37,338 nt of DNA from a virus (IMGVR_UViG_3300005914_000029:1-37338), one strand, 5' to 3'. Shown: positions 1,241-28,185, counted from the first letter of the stretch. The notes: generated by a model from the letters alone, not told the origin. Program-made: numbers and translations.

Positions 1241-1289
1241 CAACCTAGAGAATTTATAACACGTACATAAAAATAAGATAAGTAGCTAT

Positions 1290-10123: not shown

Positions 10124-10141
10124 TATTTTTTTATAGCCCAC

Positions 10142-10182: not shown

Positions 10183-10195
10183 GGACCTACCAAAC

Positions 10196-11329: not shown

Positions 11330-11350
11330 TATAATACAAAGGAGTTAATT

Positions 11351-11743: not shown

Positions 11744-11894
11744 ATCACCCTGCATTAAACAATGTCAAATGACAGCAGAAGGAATGTGCTTAGGTTGCAA
11801 AAGAACCTCCAACGAAATCGCAGGTTGGCTCTCTTACAGCACCCTTCAGAGACACCAGATAATGACCCTCCTGAAATTACGAAAACCGAAGTAG
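11739..11894 (+). CDS. DUF1289-type four-cysteine protein, apparently starting at ATT
   Basis: The translation contains SPCIKQC, then GMCLGCKRTSNEIAGW, matching DUF1289 (two Cys pairs, then R-T-x-x-E-I-x-x-W). The reading frame upstream contains no ATG, GTG or TTG before the first cysteine; the first ATG is residue 11, inside the domain. The best start is ATT at 11739: AAAGG lies seven bases upstream, and ATTGA overlaps the iscU TGA just as ATGA overlaps do elsewhere in this genome. This gives 51 residues beginning (M)ESPCIKQC. An alternative is a +1 frameshift at the iscU stop that would fuse the two. Function is unknown; the cysteines and position suggest a role in metal or Fe-S handling. 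Confidence 0.75.
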   Translation: MESPCIKQCQMTAEGMCLGCKRTSNEIAGWLSYSTLQRHQIMTLLKLRKPK

Positions 11895-11917
11895 ATACCC
11901 CGGAAAAAAAAGTATAA

Positions 11918-12853: not shown

Positions 12854-12965
12854 ATGGTATAACTGTTTTCTTTGGTAAGATTGAATTTTTCCAAACTTTG
12901 TGGAGTCTCCCACTTTTCATTATTTTATTAAATTTCTTGTATTTTTTACGTAACACTTCTAGCAT
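12846..12965 (-). CDS. Small basic protein, 39 aa
   Basis: A short frame is preceded by a strong ribosome site (AGGAG, nine bases before the ATG). It encodes a Lys/Arg-rich peptide starting MLEVLRKKYKKFNKIMKSG and ending KKTVIPSN. It lies 45 bases downstream of the radical SAM gene on the same strand and can be its last operon member. About 12 of 39 residues are Lys or Arg, suggesting nucleic-acid or membrane contact. It could be a short substrate or leader-like partner of the radical SAM enzyme, but that is speculation. It contains no cysteine. Confidence 0.6.
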   Translation of the reverse strand: MLEVLRKKYKKFNKIMKSGRLHKVWKNSILPKKTVIPSN

Positions 12966-13010
12966 ATTGTATTTTTCTCCTTATGTACTATATATGCCAG
13001 CCTGCTTATA

Positions 13011-14153
13011 TTATAGGTATTGTTGTGTGAAAGCATCATTTGTACCGCATGTCTTTGCACACACTTGCAACTTTCCTTCGTTACAACTAGGCTTATTCCA
13101 ACTATTTTCTATCGATTCAAAATAGTTATTTTCTAAAATTTCTTCTATTGTATAATTCAATGCACTGATGTTGGTTTTCCCTACGGCGTTGATGTATTTC
13201 CAAATCTGGCTCCCTTTTGGGGTATGATACCAATTGTACATTTGTCCAGCGACCCAACAACAAGGTTGCAGTATCCCTTCAGCACTGACGTATATACTTT
13301 TTTCTTCTTTAACTTTACATTTGATTGTAGTTGTGTCATAGTGGTGCTGAACTTTAGACCTAGGATCAAATAATTCTGGGTTTAATTTCCCTAATAAATC
13401 TACCTTTTTCGTTGGAAAAATCATGTCCTTTTCTTCGGTCATACTCGACATCTTTTTAGTCGATAAGTTCTCGTAGGATGCGCCTCTGGGCGGTCTGATA
13501 TCTATTTCAGAGCCATGCCTGTCGATAGTTTTGATATATGATTTAGTAGTTCCCGAGACACTAGAAAAGAACCTAGAAGATGTTTTAACTTGGAATTCAG
13601 CAAAGCCTAGATACTCAGATAATGCTCTTGCTTCCTCCACTTGATGCTCGTTGTGTGCAAAAACAATGTATTCCCAACGTGCAATGCCGCCAGCCTCTAT
13701 AAAGGCCCTAGCATTATCCATGATTTTCTTCCAAATTGTGTTCTTGCGATAAAGATGGTTGGTGTCTTCTAATCCATCGATGCTAAACACAACGTATCCA
13801 TGGCTTCCTATAGTAGACGCCAAGTCCTTCCACCAGTCTTTTGTTCTAGCAGATGCATTTGTATTCATGCTTAAAAAGATATTTGGATTGATACTTCTAA
13901 AATGCTTCATAGTTTTTAATGTGTCTTTTGCTACGATAGGATCACCATAGTTACCGCACATAAACATATGATTTAATTGTTTGATAAAATCATCTGGAAA
14001 GATAGTTTGTATATCTGACAACGATAGTTCAGCATTCTTAAGCCATGGATTGTCTTCTCCTCCATTGATATTTCTAGCACACATCGGACAAGCGGCATTG
14101 CATTTTTCAGTAATCTCTAAATGAACAGTTCTAATGTCTGGGTACAAATACAT
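13011..14153 (-). CDS. Radical SAM enzyme with SPASM-like C-terminal cysteines
   Basis: The 380-residue protein has the radical SAM cluster motif CNAACPMC (C18, C22, C25) following HLEITEKC, then a TIM-barrel region with CGNYGDPIV and FSIDGLEDTNHLYR. The C-terminal third carries further cysteines (IKCKVKE, QPCCWV, SCNEG, VCAKTCG), as in SPASM or twitch proteins that bind auxiliary clusters. Family members modify peptides or cofactors; the substrate here is unknown. It starts in a TAATG overlap with the upstream methyltransferase, so the two are translated together. The phage also encodes a SAM source (MetK), an Fe-S scaffold and a candidate NADPH electron donor within 3 kb either side. Confidence 0.9.
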   Translation of the reverse strand: MYLYPDIRTVHLEITEKCNAACPMCARNINGGEDNPWLKNAELSLSDIQTIFPDDFIKQLNHMFMCGNYGDPIVAKDTLKTMKHFRSINPNIFLSMNTNASARTKDWWKDLASTIGSHGYVVFSIDGLEDTNHLYRKNTIWKKIMDNARAFIEAGGIARWEYIVFAHNEHQVEEARALSEYLGFAEFQVKTSSRFFSSVSGTTKSYIKTIDRHGSEIDIRPPRGASYENLSTKKMSSMTEEKDMIFPTKKVDLLGKLNPELFDPRSKVQHHYDTTTIKCKVKEEKSIYVSAEGILQPCCWVAGQMYNWYHTPKGSQIWKYINAVGKTNISALNYTIEEILENNYFESIENSWNKPSCNEGKLQVCAKTCGTNDAFTQQYL

Positions 14154-14704
14154 TACTTTCGACCGATTAGCATATACCTGTCATAGGAGAAACTTCCATA
14201 ATCAAAGTGTATTTTTTCTAATAACATCGTTCGACTCATTGGGAATCTTTTTGCAAAGTCATCAAGTGTCGTAACAGGATTGGTAACGAGCCAGGGTGCT
14301 TCCGGCTCGTTCACGTTGCTAGTTTGGATGCACACCAGTGTTGATGGATCGACGTTACCAAACCAATCATCAGTCATATGTTCGGCACTGCAATTGATGA
14401 CCACTTGCTGTCCTTGCAAGTTAACGGTTCCTGCATCAGCACAATCGTTTCGGAGTCGCGCATCATCTCCGATCATAAAGCCTTGACATATCTTGTCTGC
14501 CCCTGCAATCGCTTCCGGCGAAATATCTATCCCTAATATGTGTTGATACTTGCTTTTGCATCTAGTCAATAACATAAAACCAAGCACATTGTACCAGCAT
14601 CCCAATACAGCAACAACTGCGTTATCTGGTAGAAGTGGTTCTAGCTTTTCACACAACCAAAGTTTACTTTGTGTTTGTCCGTGCGAGAATGACGTTGTAT
14701 CCAT
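14153..14704 (-). CDS. Class I SAM-dependent methyltransferase-like protein
   Basis: Starting at ATG 14704 it has 183 residues. The nucleotide-binding loop VAVLGCW (31-37) is followed by GIDISPEAI with acidic D60 after strand 2, the layout of Rossmann methyltransferases; GDDARL and INCSAEHM fit strands 3 and 4. The longer reading from 14752 adds hydrophobic residues encoded across the promoter and is not favoured. The chosen ATG sits exactly five bases after a late-promoter-like AATTAAATA, with no ribosome site. It overlaps the radical SAM start by one base. Substrate unknown. Confidence 0.78.
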   Translation of the reverse strand: MDTTSFSHGQTQSKLWLCEKLEPLLPDNAVVAVLGCWYNVLGFMLLTRCKSKYQHILGIDISPEAIAGADKICQGFMIGDDARLRNDCADAGTVNLQGQQVVINCSAEHMTDDWFGNVDPSTLVCIQTSNVNEPEAPWLVTNPVTTLDDFAKRFPMSRTMLLEKIHFDYGSFSYDRYMLIGRK

Positions 14705-14709
14705 AATAG

Positions 14710-14718
14710 TATTTAATT
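14710..14718 (-). promoter_or_regulatory. Late promoter element giving a predicted leaderless mRNA
   Basis: On the minus strand AATTAAATA, then CTATT, then ATG 14704. T4 late promoters start transcription about six bases after this element, which would be the A of the ATG. No Shine-Dalgarno is present. Confidence 0.6.
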
Positions 14719-14788
14719 GGATAAATAGGTTGTTGATAAAAAAAAATAACATGTTATAATAACTCTAAATATAAATGGAAGAGGAAGG

Positions 14789-14817
14789 TTGACTTTACAT
14801 ACTGCTAGTTGTATACT
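14789..14817 (+). promoter_or_regulatory. Sigma70-type promoter for the 75-aa gene and tRNA-Leu unit
   Basis: TTGACT, 17 bases, TATACT. An eight-base inverted repeat (AGGAAGGT at 14782-14789 and ACCTTCCT at 14832-14839) flanks the core promoter, and CTAGT/ACTAG repeats surround the -10 box, so a repressor site or leader hairpin is possible. Confidence 0.8.
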
Positions 14818-14856
14818 AACGTACTAGAGAGACCTTCCTTCATATAAGGATAGTCT

Positions 14857-15084
14857 ATGAATTTAAGAGAAAAGTTAAACGGCAGAATGGATCAACTACA
14901 AGCATGGATGGAAAGCAATCATCACTTAGTAGACCCAGACGAATGTACCACTTTGATTGATGATAAACTGAGTTTTGCATGGGAAATATTAAGTGAAGAA
15001 GACAGAGACTATATCCAAGGATCACGGTATGCTATTGAAAAACAGATGCACTGGGAAGTCCCGTCTAAGGAGACGGACCAATAG
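14857..15084 (+). CDS. Conserved T4-like phage protein of unknown function, 75 aa
   Basis: The product is helical and acidic (MNLREKLNGRMDQLQAWMES, then DEC and EILSEEDRDYIQGSRYAIE). I recall related small proteins in cyanophages and other marine T4-like phages, without known function. AAGGA lies at good spacing before the ATG. It is the first gene behind a strong sigma70-type promoter and is followed ten bases later by tRNA-Leu. Confidence 0.8.
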   Translation: MNLREKLNGRMDQLQAWMESNHHLVDPDECTTLIDDKLSFAWEILSEEDRDYIQGSRYAIEKQMHWEVPSKETDQ

Positions 15085-15094
15085 TACGAATTTT

Positions 15095-15180
15095 GCTCGG
15101 GTGGTGGAAGGGTATACACAGGAGACTTAAAATCTCCCGCCTTAACGGGCTTGCGAGTTCGAATCTCGCTCCGAGTACCA
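15095..15180 (+). tRNA. tRNA-Leu (anticodon UAA), CCA encoded
   Basis: The acceptor strands GCTCGGG and TCCGAGT pair (two G-U) with discriminator A and CCA. The anticodon stem GGAGA/TCTCC encloses loop CTTAAAA with anticodon TAA at 15128-15130. A long variable arm follows (GCC TTAAC GGG), as expected for class II tRNA-Leu, and the T arm GCGAG/CTCGC encloses TTCGAAT. The 86-base tRNA reads UUA and UUG codons, common in an AT-rich genome, so it probably supports late translation. It is transcribed with the 75-aa gene and the reductase gene. Confidence 0.96.
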
Positions 15181-15196
15181 TGCATGGAAAAAATAG

Positions 15197-15922
15197 ATGT
15201 TAAAAGAAAGAATCACTAAAGTAACACACTGGTCAGATCGCACTTGTAGTATTAGAACAACAAGAAGCGATACGTTCAGATTCAATTCTGGTGAGTTCGC
15301 AATGATCGGACTCTACAGTGAAAAATACAAACGGAACGTTATCAGAGCATATAGTATTGTTAGTCCACCATGGGCTGACTACCTAGAATTCTTGAGCATT
15401 AAGAACGTTGGTCCGTTAACGAACGAATTATCAAAGGTAGAATTCGGTGATGAGTTATTACTTTTACCAAAATGCACAGGCACTTTGCGCAATGACTTTC
15501 TTAGTGATGGTGGTAAGCGATTATTATTATTAGCAACTGGTACAGGCCTTGCTCCGTTCATATCCACTATCAATGACTTAGCCATCATGGAACGATTCGA
15601 CCACATACATTTAGTTCATAGTGTTAGAGACCGCAAAGACTTGGCCTACTATGACGAACTTACTGAGGCATACCAATATACTGAGCCAGATATATATGAT
15701 TATCTCAAAGACAAACTTGAATACACTGCGATAGTTACTGGAGAAGGTGATGCTCGAATTGACGCTAGATTCTTAAAAGAAGATGACAGGGTAATGGCAT
15801 GTGGCAATCTTCAATTTAATTATGCGGTAGTTGAATGGTGCAACGAGATGGGCATGACTGAGGGTTCGAATAGAGCAAGAGGCGAATTTGTAATAGAAAA
15901 GGCATTTGTGGACACTCGGTAA
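15197..15922 (+). CDS. fpr: Ferredoxin/flavodoxin-NADP+ reductase
   Basis: The 241-residue flavoprotein has the FAD-binding RAYS motif (50-53), the NADP-binding ATGTGLAPF (113-121), a MACGN motif and the C-terminal EGSNRARGEFVIEKAFV stretch typical of bacterial Fpr. Family role: electron exchange between NADPH and ferredoxin or flavodoxin. In bacteria Fpr with flavodoxin drives radical SAM enzymes, so together with the nearby radical SAM, MetK and IscU genes this is a plausible electron supply. No ferredoxin or flavodoxin is in the window. It begins 16 bases after the tRNA CCA; the ribosome site is weak. Confidence 0.92.
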   Translation: MLKERITKVTHWSDRTCSIRTTRSDTFRFNSGEFAMIGLYSEKYKRNVIRAYSIVSPPWADYLEFLSIKNVGPLTNELSKVEFGDELLLLPKCTGTLRNDFLSDGGKRLLLLATGTGLAPFISTINDLAIMERFDHIHLVHSVRDRKDLAYYDELTEAYQYTEPDIYDYLKDKLEYTAIVTGEGDARIDARFLKEDDRVMACGNLQFNYAVVEWCNEMGMTEGSNRARGEFVIEKAFVDTR

Positions 15923-15940
15923 CACAAAAAATTAATAAAC

Positions 15941-15948
15941 GATAAATA
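15941..15948 (+). promoter_or_regulatory. T4-type late promoter
   Basis: GATAAATA followed by a 49-base leader with a small ACAGA/TCTGT hairpin and a strong AAGGAGG ribosome site. It drives the 47-aa membrane protein gene at 15998. Confidence 0.65.
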
Positions 15949-15997
15949 TTAATACAGAGATTAATTTTCTGTGTGAAAAGACCAAGGAGGAAATATA

Positions 15998-16141
15998 ATG
16001 GATTTTCAAATATTTATAGCAATAGCTCTTATCAGCGGAGTTGTATATTACGTTGTGAAAAAAAGAAAAGATGGTAAATCTGGATCAGGCAGTAATGTGA
16101 CTCCTCGCGAGGACACTTCCAACAATAAACATCGAAAGTAA
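15998..16141 (+). CDS. Small single-pass membrane protein, 47 aa
   Basis: A perfect AAGGAGG lies seven bases before the ATG. Residues 2-20 are hydrophobic (FQIFIAIALISGVVYYVV), followed by KKRK and a polar Ser/Gly/Asn-rich tail, so the protein is probably N-out/C-in. It has its own late promoter and terminator, suggesting high late expression as a single-gene unit. It could be a holin- or spanin-like lysis factor or a minor virion protein, but no family is recognised. Confidence 0.75.
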   Translation: MDFQIFIAIALISGVVYYVVKKRKDGKSGSGSNVTPREDTSNNKHRK

Positions 16142-16156
16142 AAATAGACCTATCTT

Positions 16157-16184
16157 AAAAAGCACTGTACAGTGCTTTTTTTTT
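16157..16184 (+). terminator. Bidirectional intrinsic terminator
   Basis: AAGCACT-GTAC-AGTGCTT is a perfect stem with a T9 run on the plus strand and a T5 run on the minus strand. It lies between convergent genes, ending the 15998 unit (+) and the GNAT unit (-). Confidence 0.92.
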
Positions 16185-16193
16185 GTCATAAAA

Positions 16194-16763
16194 TTAGTCA
16201 GGATTAGACCATTGTTTAGAAAGTTTTTCTTCCAGAAGATTAAGTTCTGTTCTGTTAAAAACGAACACCACTCTCATGTTCATGCCAGTCTCTCCGTCCT
16301 CCCAGCCTGAATCCCAACTGTGACCGATCGGATAAAAACCTGTATTTACATACGTATGGTGGCTGTCACGTTTTGGATAACTCCATGTTGCGATGGCACC
16401 TTCGTGTACTCCTTGTGCAATTGTTTTTGTTAACAACTTGGTGCCAAGTCCACAACCTCTATATTCTGGAAACACATACAGGCCACGTGATCTGTACAGT
16501 TTATCCATACACATATGACCCGAATTAACTCCGATTAAAGTGTCATCTTTAAACACGCCCCAGAATGTAGGAAGATACTCCATGTTTTTCAAGTCATATG
16601 CTGGAAAACTTTCCCATTGATGTGGATAGTGTTCTTGTGTTCTCCGTCCTAGGAACAGACACATGGCACTGGTTGATTCTATGACTGATTTTCTTTCTAT
16701 CCATAGATGATCCCTCCAGACTGGTAAAATTTCTTCCCATGTTATCTTTTTAATAATGTGCAT
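16194..16763 (-). CDS. GNAT-family N-acetyltransferase
   Basis: The 189-residue protein has the core GNAT pattern: strand FWGVFKDDTLIGVNSGH, strand GLYVFPEYRG and the acetyl-CoA loop RGCGLG (102-107), then helix TKLLTKTIAQG and the YVNTGFYPIG ending typical of motif B. Substrate unknown. Its ATG shares a base with the stop of the upstream oxygenase (TAATG), so the two are coupled. It ends ten bases before a bidirectional terminator. Confidence 0.87.
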   Translation of the reverse strand: MHIIKKITWEEILPVWRDHLWIERKSVIESTSAMCLFLGRRTQEHYPHQWESFPAYDLKNMEYLPTFWGVFKDDTLIGVNSGHMCMDKLYRSRGLYVFPEYRGCGLGTKLLTKTIAQGVHEGAIATWSYPKRDSHHTYVNTGFYPIGHSWDSGWEDGETGMNMRVVFVFNRTELNLLEEKLSKQWSNPD

Positions 16764-17548
16764 TACTTCTCCGGAAAGTCTATAGTATACATTGCTTTAT
16801 CAGGATGTCCTGGTAAATACAAATCATCTTTATGTGCCCAACGTATAGAGAATGCTAGACGTGGTTCTTTATCGGGGTCCATATTGGAATTAACACCATG
16901 ATAACATGCGTTACCGTTAATTGATATTGCTTCATTCTGCTTGGGCTTATAAACATAGCCACCCATCGTGTAAAACTCACCTCCATGGCCTTCTACATGA
17001 TCATGTAAATAAAAGGTTGTTGTTCTTGCTCTTGCATCTTGACTTGTGGGCGTGTTAAAATACTGAGGATTCATGTCACCGTGTACCTGCAGATATTCGG
17101 TATACTCCATGTAATTGATGTGCCACCTATACGGCACCCAACATTCAGGATCAGCTAAGAATGGTGATTCGTTGTTAAATGTTGTGAGTACATGAAAGAA
17201 CAACGGATGAATACTATTTTGCAAGGTAGCCCATGTCCATGCATGGATAGTATCAGATGTCTGGTACCACCAATCCCTTTCAAAGGTAAGATCGTATATA
17301 ACTTCTTGTTGTCTACCATTTTGTTTATGAGATACAATGTGCAAACGTCTATCATTGTGTGTGAAAGATGATCGGTGTGTCTTGTAGGTTAATTTGTTGT
17401 TTGTGGTTAGGTGCGAGATTATCGCATCCTTGATCTGTTGGTAGACTGTCGGAGGAAACACATCTGAATAAGTATAAAGACTCAATGGTTGTTGAGTCCC
17501 TATATAATGTTTATTTGGTTTGTTATCCAAGTAATGATCTACGTTCAC
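16763..17548 (-). CDS. 2-oxoglutarate/Fe(II)-dependent oxygenase
   Basis: The 261-residue protein has HGD (H156, D158) and the distal CYHGVN (H217), with R230 or R236 to bind 2-oxoglutarate. GGEFYTMGG (189-197) matches the family's central strand. The start is GTG, placed exactly five bases after TAATAAATA with no ribosome site, so its mRNA may be leaderless. It is coupled to a GNAT acetyltransferase. Together they may modify a protein or small molecule in two steps; the target is unknown. Confidence 0.85.
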   Translation of the reverse strand: MNVDHYLDNKPNKHYIGTQQPLSLYTYSDVFPPTVYQQIKDAIISHLTTNNKLTYKTHRSSFTHNDRRLHIVSHKQNGRQQEVIYDLTFERDWWYQTSDTIHAWTWATLQNSIHPLFFHVLTTFNNESPFLADPECWVPYRWHINYMEYTEYLQVHGDMNPQYFNTPTSQDARARTTTFYLHDHVEGHGGEFYTMGGYVYKPKQNEAISINGNACYHGVNSNMDPDKEPRLAFSIRWAHKDDLYLPGHPDKAMYTIDFPEK

Positions 17549-17553
17549 TACTC

Positions 17554-17562
17554 TATTTATTA
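17554..17562 (-). promoter_or_regulatory. Late promoter element giving a predicted leaderless mRNA
   Basis: Minus-strand TAATAAATA, then GAGTA, then GTG 17548. Same five-base geometry as at 14704, 19481, 21896, 21924 and 26472. Confidence 0.65.
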
Positions 17563-17581
17563 ACAGACTACCAACGTTCTT

Positions 17582-19363
17582 TTATTTTAAGAACCTGGCC
17601 CAATAAGCAAAGAAACTAATACTGTTGACATCTGATAGTGCTAATGTAACATCTGATTCCGATGTGTCACTATGATCTGCGTTGCTGTGGAAGTAAAAAA
17701 TAGTATTTGATGTTACTGTTACTCTACTAGTCGTAGCAATTCCCCTAAATTCAACCATTTCCAACCTAGTATCATTAGGTAACTCAACACCGGTTGCCAA
17801 CTCAATTGTAACTATACCAGTCTCGCTGTCAATAGATACATAGTCTTCGTATTCTTCTTTAATCACATCATCTATGAATGCGAGAGAATACACCGGCGTA
17901 TCATCGGGATACATCTCTTTCCACGTGGCTATGTCAATGTTCGAGTTTAAATCTATGACTAAGGGCTCTTCAGAACTAACACCTAGATATGATACCATGT
18001 CTGCATTTTTGTAAGACGCCATTGGGTCAGCAGTAAAAATGTATGCTAAATTGTTTTGATTAGCACTAAAGGTTGTGTCTTCGAATAGCAACGCATTTTT
18101 AGTTGATGTAGACATAACTATATTTTTCATTTCATTTGCTGTTACTAATGACTCGTTCATAGAACCAATCACAACGGCAACACCTGCTACAAGAGGAGCC
18201 GCAAACGATGTACCAGATGATATACCATATGCACTTGCACTACCAGTCGGATGAGCTATCATAACTTCATCACCAGGAGCAAATAAATCTAAATTTAAGC
18301 CAGGTGATGTAGCAAGGCCTGAATCACTTGGTGAAATGTTGTTATATCCAGCTGGGATATCGTACTTGTCAGTTGCACCAACAGTTAAACAACCACTGAT
18401 TCCAGCTGGAGTGACTAAATCAACGTCAATGCCATTGTTACCCGCCGCCGCGATGATAGTAACACCCGCATCTATTAATGCTTGGAACTTACGATCTAGG
18501 AATGCTGATCTTGAAACACCCCAAGAAACATTAAGAATACGTGTCTTTAACGGGTCTGCTACGATTGTTTGTTCGAGCAAATCAAGTGCTTCACCTAGCT
18601 GTGTCATAGTTGCAGTAACAGTAGCCGCATCAGGTGCTAATGTTACATTGTCTGATGCTTTACCTTGAATTTTAATTATTTTGAGTTTTACGTTATCTGC
18701 GATACCCAAGTTAGCGCCTACTGCCATTGATGCTACACCAGTACCGTGACCCATTTGATCATCCGCTACCCAAACACCTGGCATACACCAGAATGTTGAC
18801 ATTTCTAAATCTGCGCCTTGAAATTCGGCATGTTGTGAATCAACACCTGTATCCATAATATATAATTCAGGTTTTGAAAGGTAATTTGTATCATGCATTG
18901 CATACGATGTTGCCAATGGACGATAATGTGATGCTACTCGTATGCGGGCCCATTGTCCTTCTGAACTTGTTGGATCGATTGCAGAATCAGCAGAATCCAT
19001 CCCTGTCATGCTACTTACGCCCAAAAACGCTAATGGGGTATCAGAAACATCGATGCTTGTAACTGCTTTTGCTAAAACCAGGCCAGACTTAGATGTAACT
19101 CTAAAAAATCCGCTACCCAAATCTTCTTCGACAGTACAATCATCCAACACTTCGAGGTTGTACAGTGTGCTTTCAACGATGAACTCGTGTTCATCAGTAT
19201 CTAATTGTGTGTGCGTGATAACAGTAGGATCCTTGACTGCATCCTCTGCTAAATGCCAATCAATATCTAATGAATTGCTGACTGGTACGTCAGACAGTTT
19301 CCACTTATTTGCAAATGCTAATGCATCTGCATCACTGTCAAATGTAACTTTTAATTTACTCAT
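17582..19363 (-). CDS. Subtilisin-like (S8) serine protease
   Basis: The 593-residue protein carries the full catalytic set: D171 (MDTGVD), H206 (GHGTGVAS), the oxyanion N309 (AAAGNNG) and S386 (GTSFAAPLVAG). An N-terminal 110 residues may act as a propeptide-like domain; no signal peptide is present. After the catalytic domain (to about 430) comes a 160-residue beta-rich C-terminal region ending SFFAYWARFLK. It has its own late promoter (GATAAATA) with a normal leader and a GGAG ribosome site. The late timing and lack of an export signal suggest a virion-associated or assembly protease, or one released at lysis. Substrate unknown. Confidence 0.92.
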   Translation of the reverse strand: MSKLKVTFDSDADALAFANKWKLSDVPVSNSLDIDWHLAEDAVKDPTVITHTQLDTDEHEFIVESTLYNLEVLDDCTVEEDLGSGFFRVTSKSGLVLAKAVTSIDVSDTPLAFLGVSSMTGMDSADSAIDPTSSEGQWARIRVASHYRPLATSYAMHDTNYLSKPELYIMDTGVDSQHAEFQGADLEMSTFWCMPGVWVADDQMGHGTGVASMAVGANLGIADNVKLKIIKIQGKASDNVTLAPDAATVTATMTQLGEALDLLEQTIVADPLKTRILNVSWGVSRSAFLDRKFQALIDAGVTIIAAAGNNGIDVDLVTPAGISGCLTVGATDKYDIPAGYNNISPSDSGLATSPGLNLDLFAPGDEVMIAHPTGSASAYGISSGTSFAAPLVAGVAVVIGSMNESLVTANEMKNIVMSTSTKNALLFEDTTFSANQNNLAYIFTADPMASYKNADMVSYLGVSSEEPLVIDLNSNIDIATWKEMYPDDTPVYSLAFIDDVIKEEYEDYVSIDSETGIVTIELATGVELPNDTRLEMVEFRGIATTSRVTVTSNTIFYFHSNADHSDTSESDVTLALSDVNSISFFAYWARFLK

Positions 19364-19401
19364 GTGTTAGGGCTCCAAAATTTGTTATGCTTAACTTTAT
19401 G

Positions 19402-19409
19402 TATTTATC
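19402..19409 (-). promoter_or_regulatory. T4-type late promoter for the protease
   Basis: Minus-strand GATAAATA, leaving a leader of about 30 bases with GGAG before ATG 19363. It contrasts with the leaderless-type promoters of neighbouring units. Confidence 0.6.
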
Positions 19410-19468
19410 ACTATTTGCTGGGAATAAAGAATAACTGTAAAAGAATTGTACAACAGTATTTATTGTTA

Positions 19469-19475
19469 CTAAATA
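19469..19475 (+). promoter_or_regulatory. Late promoter element giving a predicted leaderless mRNA
   Basis: CTAAATA, then TTAGC, then ATG 19481. No Shine-Dalgarno is present. Confidence 0.65.
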
Positions 19476-19480
19476 TTAGC

Positions 19481-20296
19481 ATGTCCTTTAAAGTACACCT
19501 AATACATGATCTTTATTATGGTTTTAACGAACCAACAGAACCTGCAGACTTAGCATTACCCGACGTTGATTTAGTAATCTTCAACGGCAACTTGGCACAT
19601 CACGGCAAACGAAGTATATATTATGCATATCAATTGTGTGCCATGTACCCTGACATTCAATTTGTTTATAACGATGGATATAAAGAACGTTACCAGACAG
19701 TCGTAGACAAATGGAAAGATGAATATGAAAATTCAATGACCATACGTAGCTCACATGGGGATTGGCCAAAAAACTTGCATTGGCGAGACCCTAGGACAGA
19801 TGAAGGACTGAATATATTATTGCGGACGGGTCAAACTGTTTCTGTCTGGACATGTTTTGGTTTTCCGAATATTAAATCATACGATGGTGACTGGGAAGAC
19901 ACCTGGTTTTATTGCAATATCGGACTAGAGGCAACTCCCGTGCATAAATTAGAGTCTGATATTTATCCTGGCACCGATTTAAAACTATTTGGTGATTTGA
20001 CTACCTGGGCATCGCCTGAATGGGTGCATCAGAGATTTATTGAACAAGAAAACAAGATTAGAAACTGGGAAACTGGGTTAGAACATTACGGTATACTCGT
20101 AACACATTTAAATCCGTATAAAGATGATAGACTGAATGGCATAAAATACAGTGGATATAACATTCATTTAGCTAATCGTCTATGGGCCACGACTCAACTA
20201 GACCAGAATGTTAATTATGTAGGTGCTATGTTACGTTCGAATCCAGGAAGAGGATCAATCGCTAGAGGGAAAGTGCTTGAAGTAGATATTGTCTAG
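19481..20296 (+). CDS. Divergent calcineurin-like phosphoesterase-like protein
   Basis: Starting at ATG 19481 (MSFKVHLIHDLYYGF) the protein has 271 residues. DVDLVIFNGNLAHHGKR resembles the GD/GN metal motif, VYNDGYKER sits where GNHD is expected, and GILVTHLNPYKDD resembles the later His motif. The usual DxH and GHxH are not clean, so catalysis is uncertain. A longer reading from 19364 crosses the promoter and is rejected. The start lies five bases after CTAAATA without a ribosome site. Its last 42 bases overlap the convergent PP-loop gene. It could also be an unrelated fold. Confidence 0.6.
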   Translation: MSFKVHLIHDLYYGFNEPTEPADLALPDVDLVIFNGNLAHHGKRSIYYAYQLCAMYPDIQFVYNDGYKERYQTVVDKWKDEYENSMTIRSSHGDWPKNLHWRDPRTDEGLNILLRTGQTVSVWTCFGFPNIKSYDGDWEDTWFYCNIGLEATPVHKLESDIYPGTDLKLFGDLTTWASPEWVHQRFIEQENKIRNWETGLEHYGILVTHLNPYKDDRLNGIKYSGYNIHLANRLWATTQLDQNVNYVGAMLRSNPGRGSIARGKVLEVDIV

Positions 20297-21274
20297 TGCG
20301 GTAAGTTGTTCGCTTGTCAAGCTTATCTTGTAAGTGTGTTGATCACTGTTATACTTGCCACCCTCCATTCTCGTCAGTGGATACCGAAATCGTTTCTCGA
20401 ATGCCCAACCATCACTAGCTTCTTCAGCAAAATGTTCTTTGACTAATTCAAACCCTGTATATTTTCGCGCTTGAGGGACAAGATCAAACCCTACTCGCCT
20501 GTAACCAATCAACTTAGCATCATACCTTTCTTTTTCTACCTCAAGTTGTACATCTATTTGAGTTAATTTTGTTGAATTTTGATCATACATGGTATTTTGA
20601 ATGTCTGGAGTAGATAATGATATTGCCCATGCTAATTCGGGTGAATAACTCAAAAAACTACCACAAACTGCGATTTCAAATTTGTCTGCGATCTTAGTCC
20701 AGTGAAATGCCACCTTTCCAATATTTTTACCGTATGTGCCTACGTTTCTATCAGGGGCAACTCCACCGAAACAGACACCAGTGTACCCCAACTGAGTTAA
20801 TATTTCAATAAATCTATAATGAGTGTTAAAATGAGGACTTACGCCTCCGTATTTCTCAGTCATAGATGCATTGTCTCTGGTCAAGAACTGAACAATATCA
20901 AACTCGATTTCTCTATACGGAATATCAAATTTTTGACAGTATTGTTTAGCATGTTCACAGTCTTGTTTGTTTAATCCATCCTTGAAGGTAAATATAATGA
21001 CATGTGCTTCTAAATCCGCTTCTGCGAAACAATGTAACATTGCTTGACTATCGATACCACCACTAAAACATAATGCAGGGAAAGGTCCCAATTCAGCATG
21101 ACATCTTCTAGCGGCATCCGTGCGCCATTTAGCTAACTTGGTGTCATTAAATGTCACCATCTCCGAGAACCATTCAGGAGTTAGATTTAACTTGTGATTT
21201 TGTCCATTACTGGCTGACAGTCCAGTGGTATCTAACCAGTTCTCATAAAATGAGTTTGCTTTAGATTGCAACAA
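20255..21274 (-). CDS. PP-loop ATP pyrophosphatase (asparagine-synthetase/QueC-like fold)
   Basis: The 339-residue protein has the PP-loop signature SGGIDS (71-76) in ALCFSGGIDSQAMLHCF, then a strand VIIFTFKDG, as in N-type ATP pyrophosphatases that adenylate a carbonyl or carboxylate before amination or thiolation. No glutaminase domain is attached. The likely start is TTG at 21274 (or 21271), with AAAGGATGG upstream inside the preceding gene; the first ATG lies only at residue 39. It overlaps the upstream hydroxylase-like gene by 14 bases and the convergent gene by 42. Substrate unknown. Confidence 0.8.
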   Translation of the reverse strand: MLQSKANSFYENWLDTTGLSASNGQNHKLNLTPEWFSEMVTFNDTKLAKWRTDAARRCHAELGPFPALCFSGGIDSQAMLHCFAEADLEAHVIIFTFKDGLNKQDCEHAKQYCQKFDIPYREIEFDIVQFLTRDNASMTEKYGGVSPHFNTHYRFIEILTQLGYTGVCFGGVAPDRNVGTYGKNIGKVAFHWTKIADKFEIAVCGSFLSYSPELAWAISLSTPDIQNTMYDQNSTKLTQIDVQLEVEKERYDAKLIGYRRVGFDLVPQARKYTGFELVKEHFAEEASDGWAFEKRFRYPLTRMEGGKYNSDQHTYKISLTSEQLTALDNIYFKHFPSSD

Positions 21275-21896
21275 TTTTCTTTACCATCCTTTTTAATATA
21301 TGTTCATCAGTGTTTATGTTTAACACAAGCATCAAGCAGTTATCAACAAAACTAAACAAACTATGCAGTCTACTGGTGTTGATAAAATACGTTGCACCTA
21401 ATTCTAATTTTAATACTTTGTCTTCGTGTATCCACTTCATATCATTGGGCCCAAAATTGTATATTGGCACAAGAATTCTAAATGTAGGCACTGCAACTAG
21501 TGCTCCGTTATCTCTGTGAGGCGGGAAATGTCCGCCTTGATCTAATCTGAGGAAATGTGTGCGGCCTAAATTAGGTTCCCAAAAGTTTAGAAACTGGTCC
21601 AGCTCTGGTAACAACGCACATACATTTGTGCGAGTTGCTATATCACCTTCCAAATAATCTTCCCCATACATTTTGGCCCATTCTCGTAAACTGTACAAAT
21701 CTGGCTCACCACTAAATCCACCATCTAAACTAGTGACACTTAATCCGTAACGATTGTTAGGTTTCTTGTGTGGCTGGTATTCTTTCCAGCCTGGATGGTT
21801 ATCACAGACATTTCTTATTCTGTTCAAATCCATTTTGGGGAAATCAAGTTCTACAATTTCTCCCCAATTAATAATAAAATCTGTTAGTGTGGCCAT
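21261..21896 (-). CDS. Aspartyl/asparaginyl beta-hydroxylase-like oxygenase
   Basis: Starting at ATG 21896 (MATLTDFI) it has 211 residues. FPPHRDN supplies H127 and D129, FRILVPI supplies R140, and LELGATYFINTSRLHSLF supplies the distal H178, the arrangement of the cupin-fold aspartyl hydroxylase family of 2-oxoglutarate oxygenases. The longer reading from 21929 would run through the divergent promoter and is rejected. The start is five bases after GCTAAATA with no ribosome site. It is coupled to the PP-loop gene, suggesting a joint pathway. Confidence 0.8.
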   Translation of the reverse strand: MATLTDFIINWGEIVELDFPKMDLNRIRNVCDNHPGWKEYQPHKKPNNRYGLSVTSLDGGFSGEPDLYSLREWAKMYGEDYLEGDIATRTNVCALLPELDQFLNFWEPNLGRTHFLRLDQGGHFPPHRDNGALVAVPTFRILVPIYNFGPNDMKWIHEDKVLKLELGATYFINTSRLHSLFSFVDNCLMLVLNINTDEHILKRMVKKIVAI

Positions 21897-21901
21897 ATGT
21901 A

Positions 21902-21909
21902 TATTTAGC
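21902..21909 (-). promoter_or_regulatory. Late promoter element (minus half of a divergent pair)
   Basis: Minus-strand GCTAAATA, then TACAT, then ATG 21896. It is two bases from the plus-strand element at 21912. Confidence 0.7.
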
Positions 21910-21911
21910 GA

Positions 21912-21918
21912 GTAAATA
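21912..21918 (+). promoter_or_regulatory. Late promoter element (plus half of a divergent pair)
   Basis: GTAAATA, then CAAGC, then ATG 21924. With the opposite element it forms the inverted repeat TATTTA-N5-TAAATA. Confidence 0.65.
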
Positions 21919-21923
21919 CAAGC

Positions 21924-22370
21924 ATGCAATTAAATTTTAAATTTCCCCGAACGAATGTCCTATGCGATGCAGAAGAAAACAAGTGTAAGATAGCAAAAAG
22001 TATTTGCGTTGCTTTAGGGGAGCTTATGCAACTGCCAGAGAAACTTACCATAGAGTTTGTAGAGATGCCCCCTCACACTTATGCAGATTCATCATTAGAT
22101 AACACAAGTTCAAATCTTATTCGTCTGAGTCTAGCCCTATCTGTTAACGAGTTGATGATACCGCTAGTGCATGAGCTAATACACGTTAATCAAATGTATG
22201 AGGGTAGACTGATGATTACGTATGCTGGTATATTTATATGGGATAAAGTACCTTATGAAATTGATCTAACAGAAATAGACTATAAAGAATACTTGATGTT
22301 ACCATGGGAACTAGATGTAGCACAAAAACAACCTGTATTGATGAAAGAGATTCTTAAATCTTACATGTAA
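21924..22370 (+). CDS. Small zinc metallopeptidase-like protein (HExxH)
   Basis: The 148-residue protein has HELIH at 83-87 (VHELIHVNQMYEG), and E129 in PWELDVA is a good third ligand for a gluzincin-type site. It lacks a signal peptide. The small size resembles minimal metallopeptidase domains of unknown substrate. It starts five bases after GTAAATA without a ribosome site, back to back with the hydroxylase gene. Its 3' end overlaps the convergent glycosyltransferase-like gene by 17 bases. Confidence 0.8.
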   Translation: MQLNFKFPRTNVLCDAEENKCKIAKSICVALGELMQLPEKLTIEFVEMPPHTYADSSLDNTSSNLIRLSLALSVNELMIPLVHELIHVNQMYEGRLMITYAGIFIWDKVPYEIDLTEIDYKEYLMLPWELDVAQKQPVLMKEILKSYM

Positions 22371-23229
22371 TTGAGTGCGTGTCTGTATAGTCTGAGACTG
22401 CAATACCATAATTTTCACATACTGCAATTTTAGTGTCTTTGTCTAGGTGAGGCCATTTCTTTGATTCCAGATCAATTGCTTCCCAATTATTTCTTTTATT
22501 CCAATCAAGTTCAAATGCATTCGGTCGCACCACAGTTGCAACCATCCAGTCTATTGTGCATATAGTAATGCCATAGCCTTCCGCTATTTCTCTGTACTCT
22601 ATTTGACTACCTGGTTGTTGGTTAGGTTCGTATATAAATTCATTGGGGCTATAACGTCTTGCCATTATTTCTAGTTCTTTACCACGAGACATGATGAGCC
22701 AATCTTTGATAGCAACATCTGGTTGTCCACCACGTGGATCGAATGGTGATTGGTTTTTGTGTATTTCTATTCCCAATACATATATAGAATCCTGTTCTGG
22801 TAATATACAAGACAGTTCTTTACCTGTATGTTTTCCGTACAATATTTTCTGACGTTGAGGCAAGACATCTGGTCTAGTATCAAAAAATGCATCGTATTTT
22901 TTGCCTAACCTTTTCTCTTGTATTTTTATATGCGGCATCAACAATGTTTGCATGAATGCAGGTCCAGTCCAGCCATTGTAAAATTGACCATCATCGCCAT
23001 CATCGCCCATACCGCCGTTGCTAAAGTTGTTTGGTGCCACTTGAAAATGAATTAAGTTTTTCCCTTCAAATGTTTCTTCTATCCCATTAGTATTGCTAGT
23101 GTCCCATGTAATAAAATAGTAGTCTACATTTTCTGCAATAGATTCGTAGAACTTAAACACTAGTGGATAAATAAAATGCCATGTGCGAACGTGGCCGCGT
23201 AGCACCACCGCTATGTGATTCCACTTCAT
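22354..23229 (-). CDS. Glycosyltransferase-like protein
   Basis: Starting at ATG 23229 (MKWNHIAVVLRGHVRTW) it has 291 residues. The N-terminal VVLRGHVRTW and VDYYFITWDT, and the central YDAFFDTRPDVL (a DxRPD-type motif), resemble a group of phage and bacterial surface-polysaccharide glycosyltransferase-like proteins. The start forms an ATGA overlap with the previous gene's TGA, which decides it over the upstream Met. It is the last gene of the seven-gene minus-strand operon. Acceptor and donor are unknown. Confidence 0.68.
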   Translation of the reverse strand: MKWNHIAVVLRGHVRTWHFIYPLVFKFYESIAENVDYYFITWDTSNTNGIEETFEGKNLIHFQVAPNNFSNGGMGDDGDDGQFYNGWTGPAFMQTLLMPHIKIQEKRLGKKYDAFFDTRPDVLPQRQKILYGKHTGKELSCILPEQDSIYVLGIEIHKNQSPFDPRGGQPDVAIKDWLIMSRGKELEIMARRYSPNEFIYEPNQQPGSQIEYREIAEGYGITICTIDWMVATVVRPNAFELDWNKRNNWEAIDLESKKWPHLDKDTKIAVCENYGIAVSDYTDTHSITCKI

Positions 23230-23426
23230 TTTTCTATATGATTCCAATCCGCAGAAAACAAACAGAAACGTTCAATACCGGCCGGGGTTTCGTATACAAA
23301 CTGCATGGCTAACATATGTACAATCTTACCTTCATTGACTTTATTAATCGCAGATTCTCTGTGTACAATATAGTCCCCTACTTCGGGTTTGTTTTTGCCT
23401 TTCTTTATTTTCTTTTTAGCTTTCAT
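23226..23426 (-). CDS. Small basic protein with SH3/KOW-like segment, 66 aa
   Basis: The start at ATG 23426 makes an ATGA overlap with the SGNH-like gene. The N-terminus is very Lys-rich (MKAKKKIKKGKNK), followed by VGDYIVHRESAIN and EGKIVHMLAMQFVYE, a KOW/SH3-like strand pattern. Function unknown; it may be an accessory or nucleic-acid-binding protein. It is coupled on both sides by ATGA overlaps. Confidence 0.7.
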   Translation of the reverse strand: MKAKKKIKKGKNKPEVGDYIVHRESAINKVNEGKIVHMLAMQFVYETPAGIERFCLFSADWNHIEK

Positions 23427-24259
23427 ATTAACTTTTTCTCTATGCAATGTTGATACAAGTAATCAGCCCAATGTTTATGTCCGTTAGCACTAGGATAAAA
23501 GATGATAAAAACTTCTTCGGCAGTTCCTTTAGATAACATATGTTGCCATGCGGTAGTATATCTTATGAATGCATCACTGTCAAGTGATTCCCATAATACT
23601 TTGTCGCCTGGTGTAATCTTATTGAAATTCTTTTCGTATTCTTCATCGTCCCAATCATAAATCATCTTTTCATGGTGATGATAAAATGCTTGGTGCATAA
23701 CATATTTGATCCCGTAGTTTTTTAATATCTTTTCTATCTGCCAAACTTGATTGATGTGCCTGTGAATAAACTCAGTCTCCGACCAGAACTTATCAAAGTA
23801 TAAACGAAAGAATTGATCTAATTCTTTGTCCTCGTGATCTTGATCCATACTCCAAGGACCAAATGCAATAAAATGATCATCGAATCCTGTCTCACTGTGT
23901 CTCCAAGGTTTTTTTGAATAGAACTCTCTGCGTTCAGGACTCGTCCAACCAATCGAGATGAATAAATCAGAAGTATCTCTGTCAGTTAGGTATCCTTCGG
24001 TAGATAGCCACTCCATCAATTTTCTTATTATAGCATCATTCGATAATGATGGGTCACTTAAGTCTACTAATTCATCAGCATTTAATTTTTCTGCGAGTTG
24101 GTTGATGTATCTGTGTTTTAATCTATATTCCATGTTAATAGGTTTAAACTGTCTTTCGAATCCACCACCTGGTAAATTCATAATAGGTGATGGCTCTTCA
24201 ATCGGGTCTACTAACTCAGCACCCCAACACCAACTATCACCACAGCCTATTAATCTCAC
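23423..24259 (-). CDS. SGNH-hydrolase-like protein
   Basis: The 278-residue protein opens LIGCGDSWCWGAEL with the GDS block (G7, D8, S9). DPSLSNDAIIRKL fits the block with the oxyanion Asn, DLFISIGWTSPERREF fits the central strand, and PSANGHKHWADYL near the C-terminus gives the catalytic His (NGHKH). It may act on acyl groups of glycans. It is the fifth gene of the operon, linked by four-base overlaps on both sides. A second SGNH gene lies at 11918. Confidence 0.75.
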   Translation of the reverse strand: MRLIGCGDSWCWGAELVDPIEEPSPIMNLPGGGFERQFKPINMEYRLKHRYINQLAEKLNADELVDLSDPSLSNDAIIRKLMEWLSTEGYLTDRDTSDLFISIGWTSPERREFYSKKPWRHSETGFDDHFIAFGPWSMDQDHEDKELDQFFRLYFDKFWSETEFIHRHINQVWQIEKILKNYGIKYVMHQAFYHHHEKMIYDWDDEEYEKNFNKITPGDKVLWESLDSDAFIRYTTAWQHMLSKGTAEEVFIIFYPSANGHKHWADYLYQHCIEKKLI

Positions 24260-24732
24260 TCCCTTGCTTCTTTGATGTACTCTACGTAGTCACTGCATAC
24301 CCCAAAGCATGTTGCTTTACACGTGTAATCTAACCAATCTTCTTCGTATGTTTCTGGCATCACCATAATACTACGATCAGCTAGTTCACACCCTGGACTA
24401 GTCCAGATATGTCCTTTGTTTGTCAACGTGTAATCATCGACATCATGCCAGAAATAATTTATTCTATCAAAGCCAAAATTGCCTGTCATGTAACTTAATG
24501 CTTCTATATTTTTGCAGTGGAACCAAACATGATTGTTCGTTAGTATTTCCTGAGGTGCTTCATATTGAGGTTCGAAGTGTCCCAGAAATAGTACTCCATC
24601 GATGACTCTAACATCGACTTCTACGTCAAACCCTTGAGTAAGTGCATATTTAATATGATCAGGGTGGTTCTCCATACTACTAGGTCCGTTTATGTTACCT
24701 CTATGTGCGATATATATTAGATTGTCATTCAT
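24256..24732 (-). CDS. Short glycerophosphodiester phosphodiesterase-like (GDPD) protein
   Basis: Starting at ATG 24732 it has 158 residues. IAHRG (H10, R11), E21-N22, EVDV (E38, D40) and LGHFE (H52) reproduce the GDPD active-site set, although HD is HF here. GDPDs usually have 230-250 residues, so the barrel's C-terminal half is shortened. FWHDVDDYTLT and the Cys-rich tail (CKATCFGVCSDY) replace it. If active it would release sn-glycerol-3-phosphate or a related phosphomonoester. ATGA overlaps on both sides tie it to the HAD and SGNH genes. Confidence 0.78.
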   Translation of the reverse strand: MNDNLIYIAHRGNINGPSSMENHPDHIKYALTQGFDVEVDVRVIDGVLFLGHFEPQYEAPQEILTNNHVWFHCKNIEALSYMTGNFGFDRINYFWHDVDDYTLTNKGHIWTSPGCELADRSIMVMPETYEEDWLDYTCKATCFGVCSDYVEYIKEARE

Positions 24733-25454
24733 AAGGATTTTAATATTCTCCATGTTTCTGTGTACCCATCAGCAACTTCAAAAACCACACATTGTGGCCA
24801 GGCCATCATTTTATCTGCTAGTGGCTTATCAATGCCATATTCATTGCATCTATCTCCAAAGAAGTATATCGTGTCATCATTTCCATGCAGATCAAGCCAG
24901 TCAGTAATCTGTCCTTTGTTCGCGCCTCTTAGTACAATATCTATACTGCAATCTCCGCCCAAGTAACAATCAAATCTAGGATATTCGTTGTTCAATTGAA
25001 TAACGAAGTTCTCTCTTTCCTTATACATGCTGTCATGTAACATGTATGCTTGTCTTTCTTTGGATGTGGCGTTTCTAGCACACAACGAATAGTTGTAACT
25101 GCCGTTTCTCCTCTCCAATACATTTTCCCATGATTGTTTTTTATTGAACAAACTGGATTGGTGAAAACCTTTTAAGTGTTCAAGATCCTTGTCTGTGAAA
25201 TGGGGTTGGTTGATGGCAACCTCGACTCCACTTTTTGTCCATATAGAATTACCTAAACAATGAAACCCTATTTTGGCTCCATGTGTTAGTTGTTGATCTA
25301 TTTGGTCGCATGTCTTTTGTCTATGGGATCCAGTCACTAGATAGTAATCTTTGTCTTGCAAAAAATCTTCTAACCAGTGTTGAAATTCAGTGTCCATCTT
25401 TTGTCCACGATTACATAGTACTCCATCAACATCAAATACAAATTTTGCACTCAT
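24729..25454 (-). CDS. HAD-superfamily phosphatase, phosphomannomutase-like cap type
   Basis: The 241-residue protein has motif I FDVDGVL (D8, D10), motif II LVTGSHRQ, lysine motif KGQITDWL and motif IV FFGDRCNEYGID. The SIDIVLRGANKGQ segment and the FGDxxxxxGxD ending resemble eukaryotic-type phosphomannomutase (HAD type IIB). It probably acts on a phosphorylated sugar or polyol. An ATAAATA-like sequence lies six bases before its start inside the cupin gene, so it might also be transcribed separately. Confidence 0.83.
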   Translation of the reverse strand: MSAKFVFDVDGVLCNRGQKMDTEFQHWLEDFLQDKDYYLVTGSHRQKTCDQIDQQLTHGAKIGFHCLGNSIWTKSGVEVAINQPHFTDKDLEHLKGFHQSSLFNKKQSWENVLERRNGSYNYSLCARNATSKERQAYMLHDSMYKERENFVIQLNNEYPRFDCYLGGDCSIDIVLRGANKGQITDWLDLHGNDDTIYFFGDRCNEYGIDKPLADKMMAWPQCVVFEVADGYTETWRILKSL

Positions 25455-25771
25455 ATGATATATTTATCCTGTGTGTCGCTTGGTGTTTTAATGCACACGA
25501 TGGTGCAATCTTTGTGAAATGTAGGATCAGCTACCTCATTAGGCTCTATGATAAATGTATCACCTGCGACTAGTTCAGTGTCGCACACATTCATTGAGCC
25601 TGATAATAAGATGTTATACTCTGTTCCAAGTTTGTGATAGTGAGCATCCCATTGTTCCCCTTCAAGGTGGGTTAGAATTCCTACTTCAAATTCCTTTGTT
25701 CTTAGTAGACTAGGTTCAAAATCGCCAATAACCCATCCTCGATGTGTATCGCTAAGTTTCCCTACGATCAC
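25451..25771 (-). CDS. Cupin-fold protein
   Basis: The 106-residue protein has a beta-barrel pattern with a metal motif in WDAHYHKLGTEYNILLSGS (HxH, then E) and AGDTFIIEPNEV, then a late histidine (FHKDC). Small cupins next to nucleotidyltransferases often act as sugar isomerases/epimerases or sensors; the specific role is unknown. It is linked by ATGA overlaps to the nucleotidyltransferase and HAD genes. Confidence 0.8.
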   Translation of the reverse strand: MIVGKLSDTHRGWVIGDFEPSLLRTKEFEVGILTHLEGEQWDAHYHKLGTEYNILLSGSMNVCDTELVAGDTFIIEPNEVADPTFHKDCTIVCIKTPSDTQDKYII

Positions 25772-26472
25772 TTTTCAAGATATGCTTTTAAATCTTCGGG
25801 TGTTCCGATAAAATTGATGAGATCACTTTTTAGTTCGTAGAATCCAGCGGAGCCATTAAATGAATTGTAAACTGGTCCGATATAGTATTCACCCAGTGAT
25901 CTTTTGCCAGATTGCATCATTAGTCTAGCAGAACTTACAAAGTCTTTACCATGTTTCCACCAATGCAGACCAGTTAATGCTTGGTCGCTAACTACTTCTT
26001 TTTCTACTATTTCACCTGTGTCTAGGTTGATGTAACTATGCTTGGGATCATCGCTCTTAACAGTAACAACTCCTGCATCATAATCCTCTAGTTTTTCAAA
26101 TACCAAATTCTTTTCAGCTAAATTCCATTCCATAATTTGATCAGAATTAACAATAAGTAGTTCTTCATCGTTGTTTATCAAGTCGGCCGCCCTCATTAAA
26201 GTATCTGCGGCACCTTCAGTGTCTCCCATTATGACAAATACTTTACAGTCTGGGAATTCTGCCTTTAGCCTTGCTCCCAGAGCGTTGTCCATTGGACTAG
26301 ATTCATCTTCTGGGATTAAAAAGATAAAGGTATTTACGGGGTTATACATCTGTAAACTTTTAGCAGATGCGATCAACATAGGATCACCCTTAACATCGAT
26401 TAGATTTTTGGGAGAGTCATAATGACCCTGGAAGCGTGTCCCTTTCCCAGCCGCTGGTATAATTATATTCAT
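25768..26472 (-). CDS. Nucleotidyltransferase (NDP-sugar or CDP-alcohol pyrophosphorylase type)
   Basis: Starting at ATG 26472 (MNIIIPAAGKGTRF) it has 234 residues. It has the GxGTR nucleotide loop (residues 9-13), a PKNL lysine, LLIVNSDQ for the metal aspartate, HSYINLD and the C-terminal FIGTPEDLKAYL typical of GlmU/RmlA/LicC-like enzymes. It would activate a phosphosugar or phospho-alcohol with an NTP. A longer reading from 26499 crosses the promoter and is rejected. It is the first gene of the operon and begins five bases after TAATAAATA with no ribosome site. Confidence 0.88.
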   Translation of the reverse strand: MNIIIPAAGKGTRFQGHYDSPKNLIDVKGDPMLIASAKSLQMYNPVNTFIFLIPEDESSPMDNALGARLKAEFPDCKVFVIMGDTEGAADTLMRAADLINNDEELLIVNSDQIMEWNLAEKNLVFEKLEDYDAGVVTVKSDDPKHSYINLDTGEIVEKEVVSDQALTGLHWWKHGKDFVSSARLMMQSGKRSLGEYYIGPVYNSFNGSAGFYELKSDLINFIGTPEDLKAYLEK

Positions 26473-26477
26473 AACTA

Positions 26478-26486
26478 TATTTATTA
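26478..26486 (-). promoter_or_regulatory. Late promoter element for the glycan-type operon
   Basis: Minus-strand TAATAAATA, then TAGTT, then ATG 26472. It lies four bases from the -35 box of the divergent early promoter, so early and late polymerases would compete here. Confidence 0.7.
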
Positions 26487-27807: not shown

Positions 27808-28185
27808 ATGGGATCTATGGTTAGCAATGCATTACGTACCCCAGACGGAACGATATTAGAAAGTTTTTTCCGACATGACTACAAGACATATATTGACGCC
27901 AATGGCAACGAGTATATGATTGACGGCGGGTTTGATTACGTGCGATCCAGTGGTAACGGAGACGAGGAATATTTAACGGTTACTTTGGAAGATGGACATG
28001 AGAAAGTTCGTGAAGCAATGACTTGGGGAAGTTACGGCATCAACGGTGACCAACCATTAAGACGAATTAAACTATCTGAGATGGACACCGATCACATACA
28101 AGCGTGTATTGATACGCAGAGTGGTATGTATCCTCAGATGAAGACAGCAATGTTAAATGAATTGGAGCATAGATCCAATGAATAA
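27808..28185 (+). CDS. Phage early protein, paralogue of the protein at 34921
   Basis: The 125-residue protein shares NALRTPDGTILESFFRHDY, YIDANG, MIDGG and WGSYGINGDQP with the protein at 34921-35367, so the two are paralogues about 7 kb apart. No domain of known function is recognised. A GAGG ribosome site is followed by the ATG. The preceding 200 bases are a structured noncoding region. Its end overlaps a small membrane-protein gene by eight bases. Confidence 0.78.
   Translation: MGSMVSNALRTPDGTILESFFRHDYKTYIDANGNEYMIDGGFDYVRSSGNGDEEYLTVTLEDGHEKVREAMTWGSYGINGDQPLRRIKLSEMDTDHIQACIDTQSGMYPQMKTAMLNELEHRSNE

Follow-up and report, generated by a model that had tools for sequence, protein, structure and literature searches.

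The stretch of viral DNA under study (37,338 nt in full, referred to here as the window) contains 49 copies of the hexamer TAAATA, six of which are placed exactly five bases before a start codon. On the minus strand, the box at 14710..14715 is followed, after CTATT, by the ATG at 14704 of a 183-amino-acid gene (14153..14704), and the box at 17554..17559 is followed, after GAGTA, by the GTG at 17548 of a 261-amino-acid gene (16763..17548); both genes are of unknown function and have no Shine-Dalgarno (SD) sequence. On the plus strand, the box at 19470..19475 opens, through the spacer TTAGC, a 271-amino-acid gene (19481..20296) with its ATG at 19481. A head-to-head pair is formed by the minus-strand box at 21902..21907 on the left, with the spacer TACAT before the ATG at 21896 of a 211-amino-acid gene (21261..21896), and the plus-strand box at 21913..21918 on the right, with the spacer CAAGC before the ATG at 21924 of a 148-amino-acid gene (21924..22370); the two boxes are 5 bp apart and the two start codons 27 bp apart, an arrangement kept in five close relatives. 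The remaining box, again on the minus strand (26478..26483), is separated by TAGTT from the ATG at 26472 of a nucleotidyltransferase-like gene (25768..26472; IspD family by Pfam).

A search of the whole window for TAAATA-N5-(A/G)TG returns these six matches only, such that the six sites of the original prediction, which had been made from the sequence alone, hold with exact coordinates. In dinucleotide shuffles of the window the pattern TAAATA-N5-RTG occurs on average 1.61 times (sd 1.29, largest value 5), and none of 100 shuffles reaches six. Random matches to the pattern need not open genes; the six in the window all do. The predicted degenerate case also holds, as GATAAGTA at 1277..1284 (plus strand) lies five bases (GCTAT) before the ATG at 1290 and is found again before the orthologous gene in contigs G001, G003, G004 and G013, at a gap of 5-6. 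A seventh candidate site, the TAAATA at 25461..25466 on the minus strand, has a gap of 6 to the ATG at 25454 and may be no promoter, since it overlaps the conserved Asp-Lys-Tyr codons of the upstream gene. Longer reading frames, beginning at 14752, 19364, 21929 and 26499, are probably not the true ones, because alignments with the orthologues begin at the ATG that follows the box; for the 271-amino-acid gene, for example, homology begins at ATG 19481 and not at GTG 19364.

The same box is also found further upstream of genes with a conventional leader. As had been described, the box at 15943..15948 (plus strand) lies 49 bases from the ATG at 15998 of a 47-amino-acid frame (to 16141), with AAGGAGG as its SD, and that at 19402..19407 (minus strand) lies 38 bases from the ATG at 19363 of a subtilase gene, with GGAG as its SD. 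With a match of at least 4 bases as the threshold, an SD is present in none of the six gap-5 genes of the window, as predicted, against 23 of 36 other genes, a proportion which shows the accompanying claim that almost all other genes have one to be overstated. The functions of the window genes are mostly unknown, and their late timing therefore rests on the promoter.

Conservation of the five-base gap

Relatives were collected by scanning IMG/VR with three window proteins, giving 18 whole contigs, with related contigs amounting to ~1.1 Mb in total. Two window proteins gave no pattern-level relatives in IMG/VR, but local tblastn did yield orthologues of the 17548 gene. When read by eye, the gap is 5 in 11 of 13 orthologues of the 14704 gene (40-66% identity), in 5 of 9 of the 17548 gene (where those with gap 5 use ATG), in 8 of 9 of the 19481 gene, the ninth having gap 4, and in 6 of 7 of the 26472 gene; it is 5 or 6 in 7 of 9 orthologues of the 21896 gene and 4-5 in all eight orthologues of the 21924 gene with a readable start. 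Across these orthologues the box is kept while the five spacer bases vary freely. Absence of the spacing in relatives would have refuted the original prediction; it is instead conserved, and is the strongest start signal of the clade.

This last point follows from a scan of the clade with every hexamer at every gap, in which TAAATA at gap 5 ranks first (87 observed against 6.5 expected, z 30), above the SD hexamer AGGAGA at gap 5; as a positive control, a hexamer-by-gap scan recovers the known late promoters of T4 at gap 28. Permuted A/T-rich hexamers give no comparable independent spike. When TAAATA-Nk-RTG is counted for each gap k, with the requirement that it open a frame of at least 60 amino acids, the peak is at k = 5 in almost all relatives, the exceptions being G010, which has no such peak, and G013, which has five sites each at k = 4 and k = 5. 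The large raw counts at the portal and bS21 loci were discounted, as they are inflated by homologues, and the excess at gap 5 per family is modest (portal 9, bS21 20, against ~4-6). With homologues collapsed, the number of protein families is 51 for a box at gap 5, 23 for gap 4 and 10 for gap 6, compared with ~7-8 for other gaps. In a set of 106 sites the start codon is ATG in 96% of cases, the window itself having one GTG (17548).

One contig, G011, is 99.97% identical to window positions 1-16107 over 16,107 bp and extends 31 kb further; at this level of identity it is taken as another piece of the phage population of the window. Judged from the portal and the late sigma factor, three jumbo phages (Phosso, PA5oct and Atu_ph07) are the closest relatives in culture. 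No host could be assigned with MetK as a pointer, for which the best hits are just ~56% identical and of mixed phyla.

The geometry recurs in cultured phages of a different branch, whose major capsid protein (HTVC008M type) is ~33% identical to that of the window type. In the Pelagibacter (SAR11) phage HTVC008M, each of the 12 gap-5 sites that open a reading frame falls at the start of an independently annotated CDS, and these CDSs include gp2, gp3, gp4, gp25 and gp48 homologues and a tape-measure gene; a count based on CDSs, short ones included, gives 13 annotated genes in which the gap is 5 or 6. The peak is weaker in Mosig and Melnitz, with 6 and 3-4 sites, respectively, and the geometry of gp2 and gp3 is kept in both. 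With homologues collapsed across the three phages, 18 families lie at gap 5 against ~3, with one at gap 4 and none at gap 6. No clear gap-5 peak was seen in T4, Syn9, S-PM2, X1, DLP6, PA5oct or the parts of Atu_ph07 and Phosso which were read, and pattern counts in nine more T4-like records were low and close to controls. The four gap-5 matches of T4 do not look like gene starts, and the one in an annotated region that was examined falls within gene 9. A large uncultured group related to T4 has the trait, as do, separately from it, phages of the marine bacteria SAR11 and OM43. As it occurs in two distant branches and is absent from other relatives of each, convergence and repeated loss cannot be distinguished here.

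Promoter type and Shine-Dalgarno usage

In T4 late promoters, a TATA box precedes the transcription start by one helical turn, a -35 element is absent and the downstream sequence is AT-rich (PMC2988020). The logo of the 106 sites has an NTAAATA core and no conserved -35, the first T of TATAAATA being mostly not kept. A late sigma factor of the gp55 type is encoded on G011 (phrog_12791, E 3.7e-74; phrog_234, E 5.7e-22), where the portal gene (phrog_213, E 6.9e-104) begins CTAAATACTAATATG and the next gene also has gap 5; in clade contigs, the portal and a head gene are preceded by the box geometry. The predicted T4-type late promoters draw support in this regard from two sides, a gp55 homologue encoded within the phage population of the window and late structural genes which carry the box. 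In HTVC008M, gp55 and the clamp are annotated and gp33 was found. Searches for gp33 and gp45 gave no match in the window clade, where fragments only are available, and the gp45 search (PF02916) also missed the annotated clamp of HTVC008M.

A test of the start position which does not depend on the start codon is offered by leadered late promoters picked by their own SD, for which the sixth base after the box was scored. Purines occupy this base in 91% of the 32 promoters from the HTVC group and in 76% of the 75 from the window clade, A being the commonest; at gap 5, this is the position at which the A of the ATG falls. The leaderless mRNAs of the original prediction are consistent with this, although leaderlessness remains an inference, as no 5' ends have been mapped.

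SD usage differs between the two sets of genes well beyond the window. In the window clade, an SD is present in 5 of 95 gap-5 genes against 101 of 199 leadered ones, and in HTVC008M in 2 of 13 genes with gap 5 or 6 against 15 of 18 whose box stands 12-60 nt ahead of the gene (Fisher 2.6e-4). One of the two HTVC008M matches at gap-5/6 genes sits upstream of the box. The presence of SDs in leadered genes and their absence from gap-5 genes support the suggestion that such phages run two translation modes. The predicted spacing of five is not absolute, since gaps of 4 and 6 occur and the portal family is broader still: all 73 portal orthologues with a readable start have TAAATA within ~36 nt, at gaps from 4 to 36, and the SD pattern was matched in none of the 73. 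SD-less initiation in the clade therefore extends to short leaders and need not mean leaderless.

Proposed leaderless initiation and its rivals

The geometry, its conservation, the missing SD, the gp55 homologue of the window's own phage population and the late structural genes bearing the geometry are direct observations. What probably accounts for them is a set of gp55-type late promoters in which a leaderless subset stands beside a leadered, SD-bearing subset, although the start position, the dependence on gp55 and the leaderless mode of initiation are each inferred. On this account, host RNA polymerase carrying the phage gp55-type late sigma factor would read the promoters and begin transcription at the sixth base after TAAATA, which in the gap-5 set would be the A of the start codon, giving a leader of 0 nt, or ~1 nt more or less at gaps 4 and 6. 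The ribosome would then initiate on the 5'-terminal AUG without SD pairing, whereas in other late units of the same phages this promoter lies 15-50 nt before the gene, and initiation would rely on the SD. The likely benefit, itself inferred, is that a late promoter may be fitted into a gap of 8-26 bp or into the space between divergent genes. In HTVC008M, distances to the upstream gene, read by hand from the annotation, have a median of 15 bp at gap-5/6 starts, shorter than the 41.5 bp at leadered late units (p 0.007), and a head-to-head arrangement like that in the window is present at 18916/18943 (26 bp). At gap 4, which is found in 23 families, the start would need to be one base earlier, a point which counts against this account.

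The rival closest to the leaderless reading, and one which appears unlikely, is that the late promoter starts transcription a few bases off, giving an SD-less leader of 1-8 nt which is not strictly leaderless. In its favour, gaps of 4, 6 and 7 exist beside 5, and gaps among the portal orthologues, in which no SD was found, extend from 4 to 36; against it stand the sharpness of the peak at 5, in the clade (51 families against 23 and 10 at the neighbouring gaps) as in the HTVC group (18 against 1 and 0), and the fact that in leadered promoters the enrichment of purines falls on base 6. A more distant rival would take TAAATA not as a promoter but as a translation element, either an A/U-rich site for binding the ribosome or S1 or a stop codon for reinitiation. 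A/U-rich sequence can help SD-less initiation, and at some HTVC008M sites the upstream gene takes its stop codon from the TAA within the box, from which it also follows that read-through transcripts could supply a leader. This rival is nevertheless very improbable, as the same heptamer (A/C)TAAATA is found further upstream of SD-bearing late genes, head-to-head boxes between divergent genes have no upstream frame from which to reinitiate, permuted A/T-rich hexamers lack a comparable spike, and boxes lie directly after terminator-like hairpins, as at Mosig gp2, where a hairpin with a T-run is followed by the box and then the ATG.

There is finally the possibility that the geometry is an artefact of AT-rich sequence combined with a free choice of start codon, TAAATA being common in such DNA, as its abundance in the window attests. 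The shuffles, the conservation in orthologues, the annotated starts of HTVC008M and the unbiased scan all refute it, and T4, Syn9, S-PM2 and PA5oct have no spike; it can be regarded as practically ruled out.

A bolder version of the leaderless reading would see two late translation programmes arising from one promoter class, with a late change in the host ribosome favouring the leaderless or SD-less set; phage-encoded bS21, for example, or another factor would then favour these mRNAs over host and leadered ones, as a late translational switch. This is doubtful. Phages encoding bS21 have been proposed to steer late translation (PMC9723584, PMC6375957), and bS21 is encoded by HTVC008M, Mosig, Melnitz and two contigs of the window clade (G007 and G013), while it is absent from T4, Syn9, S-PM2 and 12 further T4-likes. 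As a specific partner of leaderless translation it was nonetheless rejected, because PA5oct, Phosso and Atu_ph07 have bS21 without a clear gap-5 peak; in G020, the peak is present and bS21 was not found.

Relation to known systems

T4-type late transcription is a textbook system whose late mRNAs are assumed to have SD-bearing leaders. The promoters described here share with those of T4 (TATAAATA, dependent on gp55, gp33 and gp45) the box, the lack of a conserved -35, the AT-rich downstream sequence, the presence of a gp55 homologue and the position before late structural genes. They differ in that they usually lack the initial T of TATAAATA and in that the T4 gap peaks near 28 with SD leaders, whereas here a major subset has gap 5 and no SD. 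The consensus is nearly identical to that of cyanomyovirus late promoters (NATAAATA; S-PM2, Syn9), and taxonomy assigns HTVC008M, Mosig and Melnitz to the cyanomyovirus family Kyanoviridae, but cyanophage gaps are ~20-26 with no peak at 5. Mycobacterial leaderless genes, which are common in those bacteria (PMC4633059), offer a different likeness, in that the promoter abuts the ATG, an SD is absent and a 5'-terminal AUG is predicted. The cI gene of lambda is a phage leaderless gene with a -10 box just upstream of its start codon. Both of these systems, however, use host sigma factors and -10 boxes, unlike the phage late gp55 type here, where moreover the set takes in portal, baseplate and tail genes.

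According to one paper, leaderless transcripts are frequent among phages generally (PMC5312081). For T4-like phages, the open-access literature searched, from which subscription journals are largely missing, gave no account of late genes that are leaderless. If the leaderless reading is true, structural genes would be made from leaderless mRNAs, including in phages of very abundant marine bacteria. Methods for cyanophage late promoters failed to predict those of pelagimyophages (PMC7029224), a failure for which the fusion of promoter and start codon offers an explanation. With two distant lineages sharing the trait and other relatives of each lacking it, gain and loss can be studied. The geometry also gives a rule for the annotation of start codons, and cultured pairs of phage and host are available in HTVC008M/HTCC1062 and Melnitz/H5P1.

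Box spacing at portal genes and a variant box

Among the portal orthologues with a readable start (loci L362-L441), a TAAATA box lies no more than about 36 nt from the ATG in all cases (73/73), with the gap between box and start codon varying from 4 to 36. The Shine-Dalgarno pattern used matched none of these 73 genes, the leadered ones included. Ahead of the ATG at 1290, the window carries a variant box, GATAAGTA (1277-1284), which is repeated at a gap of 5-6 in four relatives and may represent a second class of late promoter.

The late sigma factor

The gp55-type late sigma factor of the related contig G011 (45336-46244; L069:5324-6313, minus strand) has a long N-terminal part. It is matched along its length by the profile phrog_12791 and, in its C-terminal third only, by phrog_234. 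Relatives of this protein are encoded by the jumbo phages PA5oct, Phosso and Atu_ph07.

Other genes of the window and its relatives

Several phages of the T4-related superfamily that includes the window encode ribosomal protein bS21: the contigs G007 (37195-37350) and G013 (17387-17539), together with PA5oct (170985), Atu_ph07 (489120) and Phosso (389762).

Within the window, a leadered late promoter precedes the gene for a Subtilase-family protease (Peptidase_S8; 593 aa; 17582-19363). At 10196-11743, metK (S-adenosylmethionine synthetase) adjoins, in phage DNA, a gene for a NifU/IscU-type iron-sulphur scaffold; genes for class I ribonucleotide reductase lie on one side of the two and a radical-SAM gene on the other. 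The right-hand cluster contains three pairs of small genes (27808-28185 and 34825-35367; 34084-34572 and 34565-34774; 30653-30880 and 30915-31106), and the likeness of the products within each pair suggests local duplications here.
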